Part shown: positions 634-44,357 of the stretch, piece by piece | How positions within the stretch are numbered: the stretch's first letter is position 1 | How the letters are laid out: each line of letters starts with the position of its first letter | Assembly: GCF_000265385.1 (NCBI RefSeq) | Contig: NC_018013.1 | Span: 2,507,001-2,571,000 of the forward strand | Direction: 5' to 3' | DNA: 64,000 nt | Origin: Aequorivita sublithincola DSM 14238 | GTDB taxonomy: Bacteria; Bacteroidota; Bacteroidia; Flavobacteriales; Flavobacteriaceae | Translations under genes and position numbers: made by a program | Notes under the pieces: model-generated | The model's database searches: none | What the model saw: the letters and a program-made list of their open reading frames with translations, nothing else | What the model was told of the DNA's origin: nothing

Positions 634-745
634 AGATATACGCAATTTAACAAAAAAGTGCTTATATACAACCTAATTAGTACGGTTATAAGTAACTTTT
701 GTTGTATTTTCACATACACAACCCTTTAGTTGTATATACGCATGT
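634..745. repeat. Short repeated motifs upstream of the recombinase
   Basis: The gap between the nuclease-like gene and the recombinase repeats related short words. ATATACGCA occurs at 636-644 and 734-742. TATACAACC or TACACAACC occurs at about 665-673 and 715-723. The inverse, AGTTGTATATA, is at 728-738. Another CGCATATACAACCC lies inside the recombinase gene at about 919-932. Such clusters often mark recombinase arm or core sites or an autoregulatory operator; which one cannot be decided from the sequence. Confidence 0.4.
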
Positions 746-1566
746 TTACCGAGTTTGAAATATTACTCAAAATTAAAAGATATAGCCCCAACACTATCAG
801 TACATATGTGGGGCTTCTCCAGTCTTTTAGTGACTATATAGGCGAATTTCAGGAAATTTATCGATTGGATGCTAAACACCTGCTTCAAAAAATAAGGGAG
901 ATTATTATAGATAAGAGTTACGCATATACAACCCAAAAGCAATTGTTGAGTGCCTTGCAATTGTATTTAAAAGAAATGCACGGTCGCGAAACAGATTTTA
1001 GCACTTTGCGTCCCAGAAGTCCCCAAAAAGTACTTCCCGATATTTTAGCTTTAACGGAAGTAAAATTGATTTTGGACAGAACCGAAAATATAAAACACAA
1101 AGCCATGCTCACTACTATTTATGCCTTAGGCTTGCGCAGTGGCGAGCTCATAGATCTGGAAATTGTGCATCTGGATGGTAGTCGCAATACGGTGTTTATT
1201 AAACAAGCAAAGGGCAAAAAGGACCGTATGCTTCCTTTTCCTGAAAAACTAAAGGAGCTGCTTAGAGCATATTATAAAACCCACAAACCCAAACGGTTTC
1301 TTTTTGAGGGGCAAGATGGCGGGCCTTATACTGCGGGCAGCTTAAGAGCTGTTTTTAAGCAAGCTACAAAACGTGCTTCTATTAAAAAGAACGTTACTTT
1401 GCACAGTCTTCGGCATGCTTTTGCCACACATCTGTTGGAATCCGGGACAGATCTTAGAGTGATTCAGGAACTATTGGGGCACAATACTATAAAGACCACG
1501 ATGCTCTATACGCACGTGACCTATGCACATCTATTAAAGGTGAAAAGTCCGCTGGAATTACTATAA
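742..1566 (+). CDS. Tyrosine recombinase / site-specific integrase
   Basis: This is a 274-residue XerC/D-like recombinase that cuts and rejoins DNA through a phosphotyrosine link. The N-terminal half is a SAM-like core-binding domain (residues about 1-85), followed by the catalytic domain. All catalytic residues are visible: Arg132 in GLRSGEL, Lys in AKGKKDR, His221-x-x-Arg224 in HSLRHAFATHLL, His247 in ELLGHN and Tyr256 in TMLYTHV. The C-terminus ends KVKSPLELL, typical of a widespread Bacteroidota integrase group. A TTG at 730 would add four residues; the ATG at 742 is preferred. It is longer than a fragment and has no frameshift, so it is probably functional. It is divergent from the nuclease-like gene and convergent with the HTH gene, four bases apart. 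Chromosomal dimer-resolution XerC/D proteins are a less likely alternative because of the accessory context. Confidence 0.88.
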   Translation: MFTEFEILLKIKRYSPNTISTYVGLLQSFSDYIGEFQEIYRLDAKHLLQKIREIIIDKSYAYTTQKQLLSALQLYLKEMHGRETDFSTLRPRSPQKVLPDILALTEVKLILDRTENIKHKAMLTTIYALGLRSGELIDLEIVHLDGSRNTVFIKQAKGKKDRMLPFPEKLKELLRAYYKTHKPKRFLFEGQDGGPYTAGSLRAVFKQATKRASIKKNVTLHSLRHAFATHLLESGTDLRVIQELLGHNTIKTTMLYTHVTYAHLLKVKSPLELL

Positions 1567-1569
1567 CCT

Positions 1570-1935
1570 TCAGCCTTTCCGCAGTACCGCCATCAAGGTT
1601 TCCAACTTAGCATTCAGCAGTTTGTTCTGCTCCTCCAGCTCGGCAAGGCGTTCTTGGAGGGGCAAGGTAGGGTCTGGGGCTTTGGTGGTAAAGTCTTGTG
1701 GCAGCTGGGCGGCGAGATCTGCAAAAAAGTTGTGGTTTAGCCCAAGGGAAAGCTCCCAAAGGATACTGCATGAAAAATTGTTCTGCCTTTGGTAGCGCAT
1801 CACGCTATTGCTGCTCTTGCCCATTACTTTTGCCAAAGAGCCTTTCCGTGTTCGGTTTTGTTTAAAGTATGCTTTTAGCATGGCCCCAAGAGGGGGCATA
1901 GGCACTTCTTGGATGGTATTTTTTTTATAAGTCAT
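1570..1935 (-). CDS. Small HTH-type DNA-binding regulator with C-terminal coiled coil
   Basis: A 121-residue basic protein starting MTYKKNTIQEV. Residues about 14-70 (LGAMLKAYFKQNRTRKGSLA, then VMGKSSNSVMRYQRQ, then ILWELSLGLNHNFFADL) fit the layout of Bacteroidota XRE-like helix-turn-helix proteins, with the second helix pair and the closing L-x-x-x-L-N-x-x-F-F segment. Residues about 95-121 (LQERLAELEEQNKLLNAKLE) form a leucine-zipper-like heptad run, suggesting a dimer. The frame stays open upstream to 2124 only because the upstream DNA is a 21-bp repeat. That extension would be a hydrophobic heptapeptide repeat, so the ATG at 1935 is preferred. The 21-bp array immediately upstream is a natural candidate for its own binding sites. 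The HTH call is by eye and moderately sure. Confidence 0.65.
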   Translation of the reverse strand: MTYKKNTIQEVPMPPLGAMLKAYFKQNRTRKGSLAKVMGKSSNSVMRYQRQNNFSCSILWELSLGLNHNFFADLAAQLPQDFTTKAPDPTLPLQERLAELEEQNKLLNAKLETLMAVLRKG

Positions 1936-1953
1936 AAATACTTGGAATTTAGT

Positions 1954-2155
1954 TAGATAAAGTATGGTATTTATTAGATAAAGTATGGAATATGATAGAT
2001 AAAGTGTGATGTTAGTTAGATAAAGTATGAGTTTTGATAAATAAAATATGGTATTAGTTATATAAAGTATGAAGTCTATTAGATAAGCTATGATTTTTGA
2101 TAGATAAAGTATGGATTGTGACAAATAATGTATGGAATATGGTAGTTAATCTATC
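1954..2155. repeat. Array of ten 21-bp phased direct repeats (iteron-like)
   Basis: The unit TAGATAAAGTATG (plus strand) recurs with exact 21-bp spacing. Units start at 1954, 1975, 1996, 2017, 2038, 2059, 2080, 2101, 2122 and 2143. Units 1, 2, 4 and 8 match exactly, units 3 and 6 differ by one base, and the last two are the most degenerate. The 8-bp remainders are AT-rich and not conserved. Twenty-one base pairs is two helical turns, so every unit faces the same side of the helix. The array fills the gap upstream of the HTH gene (start 1935). Confidence 0.9.
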
Positions 2156-2188
2156 AAAAACCATCATATTTATACTAGCGCCAAGTGC

Positions 2189-2219
2189 AAAAAAAATACG
2201 GACAATGCCCGTATTTTTT
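2189..2219 (-). terminator. Rho-independent terminator of the 162-aa gene
   Basis: A perfect 11-bp stem, AAAAAATACGG at 2191-2201 against CCGTATTTTTT at 2209-2219, with a 7-nt loop. It lies 14 bp past the stop codon at 2233. Because both arms are A/T-tailed it could act in both directions. Confidence 0.8.
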
Positions 2220-2232
2220 AGGTTCGCGCCTT

Positions 2233-2721
2233 TTAGGGTGTAGTTTCATCAACTGGTCTGCCGTTGCCCTGCCCTTCAAAGCGTACTTTCAGCTTTTCAA
2301 AGCTCTGCTTGGCTCCAGAAATGCCAGCTTGGTTGGCAGCGTCATAGTTTTTGAAAACGCTCAACGCCATGGTGTAGGCCTCGTGGCCCGCTATACGTTT
2401 TAAATCTGCTACCTTTTGGGCTGCGTTCTGTAAGCGACTTTCAATGTTATCCAACTGTTCAAAAAGCTGAATGTCATTTTGCAAGAACGTGGCGTTCAGG
2501 TAGGGTGGCAAGATGGAAAGACCGCTTCCGTTCATTTCTGCTAGTACGTCTTCTGCAAACACTTTGTTGTTTACGTTTATGGCGCTGTAAACACCTCGTT
2601 GGTTATCGTCTAGGCTGCCTGTGGGCAACGCTGCTTCCAAAGTGTTGATGGATTCTGTGATGTTTGCAATGGTGGCACCGTCTAGCACCTCATTCAAATT
2701 GTTGTCTGTTAAATTGCTCAT
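2233..2721 (-). CDS. Uncharacterised Bacteroidota protein (162 aa)
   Basis: A soluble acidic protein with no signal peptide or membrane segment. The central and C-terminal parts (LSILPPYLNATFLQNDIQLF, then EQLDNIESRLQNAAQKVADL, then GHEAYTMALSVFKNYDAANQ, then KQSFEKLKVRFEGQG) resemble a small helical family common in Bacteroidota, in which a P-P-Y/F-L element is followed by long helices and a closing Y/F-x-x-L-x-x-R-F. No function is established for that family, and none is assigned here. The gene is single, with its own terminator at 2189-2219. A GGGGG-ATTT-CCCCC palindrome lies 82 bp ahead of the start (2803-2820). It shares the accessory segment with the HTH gene and the recombinase. Confidence 0.75.
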   Translation of the reverse strand: MSNLTDNNLNEVLDGATIANITESINTLEAALPTGSLDDNQRGVYSAINVNNKVFAEDVLAEMNGSGLSILPPYLNATFLQNDIQLFEQLDNIESRLQNAAQKVADLKRIAGHEAYTMALSVFKNYDAANQAGISGAKQSFEKLKVRFEGQGNGRPVDETTP

Positions 2722-44218: not shown

Positions 44219-44260
44219 CAAAGTTTTAAGTTTAAAGTTCAAAGTTTTAAGTTTAAAGTT
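44219..44260. repeat. Two perfect 21-bp tandem repeats
   Basis: CAAAGTTTTAAGTTTAAAGT plus T occurs twice head to tail (44219-44239 and 44240-44260). AT-rich repeats of this kind are frequent in flavobacterial intergenic DNA. No link to the 21-bp array at 1954 is seen; the words are unrelated. Confidence 0.75.
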
Positions 44261-44357
44261 ATAAGTCAACCATATCAAGGGCATACGACTTCCGTCACCC
44301 GTCACCTAACACCCGTCAAAAAACTATGACATTTTGTTAACGAAAATCCATTATATA

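Follow-up and report, generated by a model that had tools for sequence, protein, structure and literature searches.

A phased repeat array upstream of an HTH/coiled-coil gene in Aequorivita sublithincola, probably the binding platform of a chromosomal module with diversifying specificity

Direct repeats about two helical turns apart, beside the gene of a DNA-binding protein, are characteristic of the iterons of theta-replicating plasmids. A related layout is found in ParR/parC, where repeats and protein diverge jointly between families and so set compatibility, ParR is typically a ribbon-helix-helix protein that works with the filament-forming ParM, and the repeats of pSK41 are 20 bp (PMC9426499). 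A third comparison is offered by HipB, which binds cooperatively to four operators that precede its own gene (PMC3920265).

Here we describe a module that resembles each of these in part. It lies in a window of 64,000 nucleotides (positions 2,507,001 to 2,571,000 of NC_018013.1) from the 3.52-Mb single-contig genome of Aequorivita sublithincola DSM 14238, and consists of a phased array with the gene of an HTH/coiled-coil protein on one side and a second small gene, here called gene A, on the other. Like ParMRC, the module places the gene of a small DNA-binding protein beside an array of direct repeats, although the reading of the array by that protein is deduced here from covariation. It differs in being chromosomal, in having a Cro/C1 HTH with a coiled coil and in having gene A as the other partner. 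ParMRC and TubZRC systems are defined by an adjacent filament-forming NTPase (ParM/TubZ) or ParA and by carriage on plasmids or low-copy replicons; gene A is not recognizable as any of these proteins, and no plasmid or phage relative was found. With HipBA and the C proteins of restriction-modification systems it shares the DNA-binding fold and the multi-operator layout, the repeated sites lying directly upstream of the regulator's gene. Unlike these, it has about ten strictly two-turn-phased sites and a C-terminal coiled coil, no toxin or methylase was found in it, and its array and DNA-binding half are exchanged jointly. Unlike iterons, the array has no Rep protein beside it, its neighbours being the HTH gene and gene A, and relatives on plasmids or phages were not found. 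We file the module as a variant of multi-site HTH/operator systems. A literature search, with most subscription papers outside its reach, returned no publication on this array/HTH/gene A system.

The features of the window discussed here are as follows.

742-1566, plus strand: Xer-type tyrosine recombinase, convergent with the HTH gene (Phage_integrase, E 6.6e-39)
1570..1935, minus strand: HTH/coiled-coil protein of 121 aa with a predicted Cro/C1-type HTH (AlphaFold2 model, Foldseek)
1573..1740, minus strand: HTH codons 66-121, comprising the HNFFADLAAQLP motif, a linker and the predicted coiled coil
1741..1935, minus strand: HTH codons 1-65, exchanged along with the array between orthologous loci of relatives
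1954..2155, minus strand: 21-bp-spaced array of ten 13-bp units (positions, Tandem Repeats Finder, period test)
2191..2219, minus strand: terminator-like hairpin with a stretch of T, lying between the array and gene A (identified by eye)
2233..2721, minus strand: gene A, a 162-aa protein, predicted to be all-helical, of a Bacteroidota-wide family (homology searches, structure model)

The unit consensus is TAGATAAAGTATG on the plus strand and CATACTTTATCTA on the minus strand. Units start at 1954, 1975, 1996, 2017, 2038, 2059, 2080, 2101, 2122 and 2143, so that the exact 21-bp step described in an earlier note on this DNA holds for all ten. In this order they match TAGATAAAGTATG at 13, 13, 12, 13, 11, 12, 11, 13, 10 and 9 of 13 bases, and the neighbouring positions outside the array match at 6 of 13 (1933) and 3 of 13 (2164). 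Summed over the ten 21-bp units, the majority bases reach 168 of 210, compared with 107.4 +/- 4.3 (maximum 122) in 200 first-order Markov resamplings. Tandem Repeats Finder also detects the array (periods 21, 42 and 63), and its value in the period test (locus L001) was reached in 0 of 200 resamplings. Two finer claims of the earlier note need qualification. Identity does tend to decay away from the gene, but the eighth unit (2101) is perfect, and the supposedly unconserved 8-bp filler carries T as its fourth base in nine of ten units and is thus not wholly unconserved.

Read along the minus strand, gene A (2721 to 2233) comes first, followed by the hairpin (2219 to 2191), the array (2155 to 1954) and finally the HTH gene (1935 to 1570), whose ATG lies 18 bp beyond the array end. 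Gene A thus bounds the array on the far side from the HTH gene, on the same strand. The hairpin was absent from the output of a pattern scan; comparable hairpins were seen by eye 3' of gene A in several loci. Exact copies of the 12-mer AGATAAAGTATG number four in the genome, and all lie within the array. When one mismatch was allowed, 31 occurrences were found genome-wide, array included, with no excess over a reversed-pattern control (32). The confinement of close unit matches to the array speaks against a regulon, and we rejected a global regulator on this ground. Elsewhere in the window (44219-44266) lies a short AT-rich tandem repeat with periods 7, 14 and 21, which apparently has no relation to the array.

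The HTH protein has a predicted four- to five-helix fold of the Cro/C1 (XRE) type. Its AlphaFold2 model (pLDDT 84.7) contains helices at residues 16-27, 31-38, 42-50 and 56-66, and the C-terminal helix (residues 90-120) is a predicted coiled coil. Foldseek aligned the model to HipB, C.BclI and C.Esp1396I with probability 1.00 and a best E-value of 1.6e-3, none falling below 0.001. PF13443 (HTH_26) was matched by seven of 14 homologues (best E 2.3e-5), while the window copy had no match. In the window, the reading frame of the HTH gene runs on through the array, giving an open frame of 191 aa, against 119-144 aa in the 14 other intact homologues from a single-protein search of 397 genomes of the family. 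Since the long extension occurs in the window copy only, among 15 intact homologues, and nine arrays have a 22-bp period, we rejected a translated heptapeptide, in line with the earlier view that conservation acts on the DNA.

The recombinase that converges on the HTH gene matched NCBIfam XerA, XerD and integron integrase models, all below their cut-offs. The earlier note had linked the array to this gene, but among 16 loci of 11-18 kb each a relative of the Xer-type gene was found only at the window's own locus and at none of the other 15, so that its place beside the module looks incidental. The suggestion that the array serves replication or partition of a mobile element fared no better. 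The window's two proteins matched none of 72,556 plasmid or 50,697 phage records, a motif scan of IMG/VR found no relative, and several loci occupy conserved chromosomal positions. A recombinase attachment or mobile-element site was rejected because the Xer gene is unlinked elsewhere and plasmid and phage relatives were not found.

The single-protein search of the 397 genomes found homologues of the HTH protein in four, and a profile search of 388 returned the same four, which hold 3, 3, 4 and 6 matches. The three of the window genome include a broken one, L003 (L052 8843-8998; G000:C1:76842-77000), a remnant of a third module of which a C-terminal HTH piece remains, without an array. In the named collection, homologues occur in Aequorivita, Halomarinibacterium sedimenti and some metagenome bins (30 loci). 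Further members, in Flavobacterium-like and Weeksellaceae-like genomes (labels inferred from protein names), were reached via gene A. The intact paralogue in the window genome, L002, lies 104 kb away and is 39% identical; it has about eleven units of period 21 with a quite different unit, GATAAAATCCAACTCAAGTAA, for which nine of 11 genome matches with at most one mismatch fall in its own array (control 0). At L002 gene A is split over two reading frames (701-1206) and this copy is thus probably broken, whereas the array and HTH gene look intact.

We then took a census of arrays upstream of HTH homologues. HTH and gene A loci came from profile searches in sampled, partly overlapping genome sets. 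Removal of 11 duplicates (at least 95% identical) and four copies without an N-terminus reduced 62 HTH loci to 47; the remnant L003 was outside the 62, as were the re-fetched places L143-L146, L148 and L173 onward. The strict test scanned periods 12-40 and demanded that the 320 bp upstream beat all 200 resamplings. These controls were first-order Markov rather than exact dinucleotide shuffles, which were used for folding; one scan used mononucleotide controls.

An upstream array was found in 40 of the 47 homologues, with period 21 in 30, 22 in nine and 23 in one, so that the expected association of array and HTH gene is borne out. Two others, L084 and L160, have a 43-bp period that lies beyond the scan (identity 0.95 and 0.72, reached in 0 of 200 resamplings each). 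L058, L150 and L163 narrowly miss the strict test (lags 22, 21 and 21; reached by 3, 2 and 1 of 200 resamplings). Intact homologues without an array, which the earlier note had named as refuting its reading, are few: L082 has no clear array (best lag 31), and L064 fails the strict test (lag 21, reached by 20 of 200). None of 45 other window genes passed the strict test. Nor did any of 14 related HTH genes have an upstream array, namely L159 and 13 Bacteroidota regulators with a 'YDFF/FDFF' motif (Chryseobacterium-like L151-L158 and L165-L169), whose N-terminal domain is detected by the same HTH profile but whose C-terminal part is different. Homologues share kinship, and the array counts are thus not independent events.

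By a rough criterion, the array ends a median of 24 bp from the start codon and within 60 bp of it in 42 of the 47 loci; in L029, L085 and L171 it stops 124-191 bp short. The remnants that lack the N-terminus (L003, L066, L073 and L074) have no array within 500 bp upstream, and a truncated HTH copy, L162, retains one. The Bacteroidota-type promoter TAnnTTTG was not enriched before the HTH gene (7 versus 8.5 expected). Periods are held to 21-22 bp across quite different sequences, a limit that would fit two helical turns.

Comparison of the arrays with the proteins shows which part of the protein the unit follows. Array similarity was scored as z against unit-scrambled arrays for the 47 modules (1081 pairs). 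In partial Mantel tests it correlated with N-terminal identity given C-terminal identity (r 0.44, p 0.0005), and not with C-terminal identity given N-terminal identity (r -0.03, p 0.73). Pairs with C-terminal identity of at least 0.75 but N-terminal identity below 0.5 had a mean z of 0.33, with z>3 in five of 79; at the same C-terminal identity and N-terminal identity of at least 0.7 the mean z was 15.8, with z>3 in 12 of 13. Overall, 14 of 15 pairs with N-terminal identity of at least 0.7 had similar arrays (z>3), a likeness that partly reflects common descent. Within genomes z exceeded 3 in five of 36 pairs, which indicates that specificities are mostly, not strictly, distinct. With a cruder first measure (k-mer cosine with rank correlation, 49 modules) arrays and N-termini showed no overall correlation in similarity (-0.05; partial -0.07; permutation p 0.82), a null that we ascribe to AT-rich k-mers common to the arrays; the pair means still showed the contrast (0.567 vs 0.183). 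At the level of sequence comparison, then, the unit follows the DNA-binding half of the HTH protein and not its coiled coil; covariation with the recognition helix was a check that the earlier note had proposed.

Replacement of blocks at orthologous loci points the same way. Codons 66-121 are often conserved between alleles with unrelated arrays, and two loci shared by the Aequorivita-genus genomes G027 and G254 show where the exchange stops. At L038/L044 the flanking DNA shows 85.5% identity over 8.8 kb, rising to 95-100% in the last 480 bp ahead of gene A; from gene A through the array to codon ~65 of the HTH gene the level is that of unrelated sequence, and the remaining HTH gene returns to 92-100%. 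At L039/L042 identity in gene A is mostly 92-98%, with lower values of 80% where the gene starts and 73-87% toward its 3' end; the array and HTH N-terminus are unrelated and the C-terminal part is 73-92% identical. A third pair from these genomes, L043/L046, is 93-100% identical from gene A through about codon 78 of the HTH gene, and here the last part of that gene differs (82%, then 57%). This is the reverse of the two swaps, and the coiled coil may be exchanged too. In the fourth orthologous pair, an intact G254 module (L040) corresponds to the decayed L003 in the window genome (L052). Two copies of one module, 98% identical, stand in different surroundings in G027; the 1333 bp that they share begin ~80 bp ahead of gene A and end ~85 bp past the HTH gene. 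The swaps and this duplicate imply that site and reader travel jointly and that the module can be copied as a unit.

Two long repeats were also seen. A 461-bp stretch, 99.6% identical at distant places of the window genome (L051 4911-5371 and L052 17541-18001), is likely a recent repeat or insertion element. In G254 a 1699-bp stretch shared at 99.8% identity by two module-bearing loci (L040 1321-3019 and L042 9139-10837) is probably an insertion sequence.

Gene A across the array, and the presence of arrays at gene A homologues that lack the HTH gene, go beyond what the earlier note described. The window copy had no Pfam, PHROG, PADLOC or NCBIfam match, and its model, all-helical with a 55-residue helix (pLDDT 87.3, pTM 0.67), had no match at E <= 0.001 among PDB or viral folds. 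The family has 1273 homologous proteins with E <= 1e-5, and gene A turned up in 39 of 395 genomes sampled from the order and in 31 of 395 from the phylum, the latter covering 22 of 171 genera. Gene A stands upstream of the array in 22 of 33 distinct HTH-search loci (two partial), where a few loci have too little upstream DNA; several HTH loci have an array with no adjoining gene A. Viewed from the other side, the HTH gene accompanies gene A at eight of 60 gene A loci, two of the eight being the window itself.

Arrays at gene A loci without this HTH were tested at 44 places, left from 47 after removal of one duplicate and two partial loci, with seven re-fetched or HTH-bearing places among L089-L142 excluded beforehand. 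By the strict test, the 400 bp downstream contain an array of period 21 or 22 at 21 of the 44, compared with 0 of 44 in the upstream control. One more has lag 15. The value of the other 20 was reached by more than 2 of 200 resamplings, and five of these (the Chryseobacterium-like L093, L094, L095, L099 and L101) have a 22-bp array further downstream. Strong arrays also occur in other orders and other classes (L121, L123, L132, L135 and L138). The link between gene A and arrays is thus common, not universal, and such arrays are not only operators of this HTH family. Directly downstream of one gene A array, at L103 1067-1154 on the minus strand, lies a Flavo-1 RNA (RF01705, 65.7 bits, E 2.7e-12).

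We also considered what might read the gene A arrays. Another XRE-type HTH gene with a coiled-coil-like tail lies near gene A in L094, L101, L102 and L104 (about 780-1195, gene A orientation) and in L117 (2745-3140), that is, in one Chryseobacterium-like clade and once in another order, and it is a possible reader of some of these arrays. As a general reader it was rejected, since a syntenic copy was found at 11 of the 60 gene A loci (L083-L142), mostly in that clade, with one copy weak and L099 and L122 the same place. Reading of a gene A array in trans by an orphan HTH protein was likewise rejected, because in the two genomes compared by eye (G457 and G449) the array of the orphan HTH is unlike the gene A array of the same genome.

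Taken together, we think it likely that the array is the dedicated cooperative binding platform of the HTH/coiled-coil protein, in a chromosomal module with diversifying specificity. HTH dimers would occupy successive units two helical turns apart on a single face of the DNA, and the C-terminal coiled coil would hold bound dimers together; the many sites, their strict phasing and the coiled coil are suggestive of a nucleoprotein complex that forms cooperatively. As the array of most loci stops no more than a few tens of bases short of the start codon, occupancy should block the HTH gene's own promoter. The filled array would then shut this promoter, and the protein would keep itself at a level that saturates its array. 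Each module would have a largely private specificity, made up of the array and the DNA-binding half of the HTH gene. This block, sometimes with gene A, would be replaced via recombination in the conserved flanks and the coiled coil. Gene A would act as a partner, either at the array or through it.

A plainer reading, possible if doubtful, is that the array is an over-built operator of an autorepressor and nothing else, with units that diverge to avoid cross-talk between paralogues. The short distance from array to start codon suits it, as does a genome without other close sites, and Cro/C1 proteins such as HipB bind several operators before their own gene (PMC3920265). About ten sites, however, exceed what such operators seem to need. 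Plain autorepression also leaves aside gene A, which so often adjoins the array, and the gene A loci without the HTH gene, which keep their arrays with no obvious regulator following in the loci inspected.

It is rather unlikely that the array belongs primarily to gene A, whose protein, or a factor encoded elsewhere, would act on phased palindromes, the HTH gene being a later addition in Flavobacteriales that made the array private. Arrays follow gene A across Bacteroidota where this HTH is absent, and they are more often dyad-symmetric (18 of 30; 12 of 17 with lag identity of at least 0.5) than those of HTH loci (15 of 47 at p<=0.05; 14 of 41 with lag identity of at least 0.5). Gene A is nevertheless nearly unchanged at L039/L042 while the array is replaced, and by eye the arrays differ among Chryseobacterium-like genomes with very similar gene A. 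A protein so constant across differing arrays is unlikely to be the sequence reader, and the HTH loci that have an array but no gene A alongside argue in the same direction.

A chromosomal centromere-like or incompatibility module, in which a segrosome-like body of HTH protein and array anchors, pairs or marks DNA with private specificities as in plasmid partition, seems unlikely to us. As many as six HTH homologues per genome and the exchange of specificity as a block are consistent with it, and ParR/parC offers the precedent of a small DNA-binding protein next to an array of repeats, where both the protein and the repeat sequence differ from family to family (PMC9426499). The expected motor-like partner is missing, however, as gene A matches no known family or fold; the DNA-binding protein is an HTH rather than a ribbon-helix-helix fold, plasmid, phage and IMG/VR relatives were not found, and the five within-genome pairs with detectably similar arrays do not suit strict incompatibility.

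We consider it very unlikely that the two genes act like a toxin-antitoxin pair, with gene A as an effector restrained by the array-binding HTH protein. HipB antitoxins are the best Foldseek matches of the HTH model and the two small genes have been duplicated as one unit, but each gene is also found without the other adjoining, so that they form no obligate pair, the window has a terminator-like hairpin (by eye) between them and its gene A has no family match. Least of all, and to our mind barely credible, the repeat could be no DNA site but a translated heptad repeat or structured RNA: in favour are the window's open frame and the arrays L002, L026 and L132, which fold far below shuffles on both strands, yet 22-bp periods are unable to encode heptads, L028 and L036 show no coding-strand folding signal (z 0.2 and -0.2) and no Rfam match at the arrays reaches the gathering score, so that a conserved hairpin RNA or RNA family was rejected, folding being strong in some arrays and absent in others.

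Beyond the binding platform that we favour, a broader idea may be offered tentatively, as one that is more probably wrong than right. Gene A and a two-turn-phased palindromic array might be the ancient core of a Bacteroidota-wide chromosomal identity system, centromere-like but motor-less, that relies on DNA shape and phase rather than on a fixed sequence. In Flavobacteriales the HTH/coiled-coil protein might have made the arrays private. A single chromosome would then harbour several mutually blind modules, and specificities would be traded between strains in the manner of plasmid incompatibility groups or prophage immunity types.

If the proposed reading is right, these loci form a natural library of dozens of HTH proteins, each with about ten copies of its target site adjoining its gene, and would offer a direct route to how Cro/C1 recognition helices select DNA. 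The analysis also exposes a Bacteroidota-wide gene A family with a phased 21/22-bp array as a frequent companion. Finally, that site and reader are exchanged together at fixed places in the chromosome suggests that selection favours private specificity outside plasmids and phages, an unusual situation.
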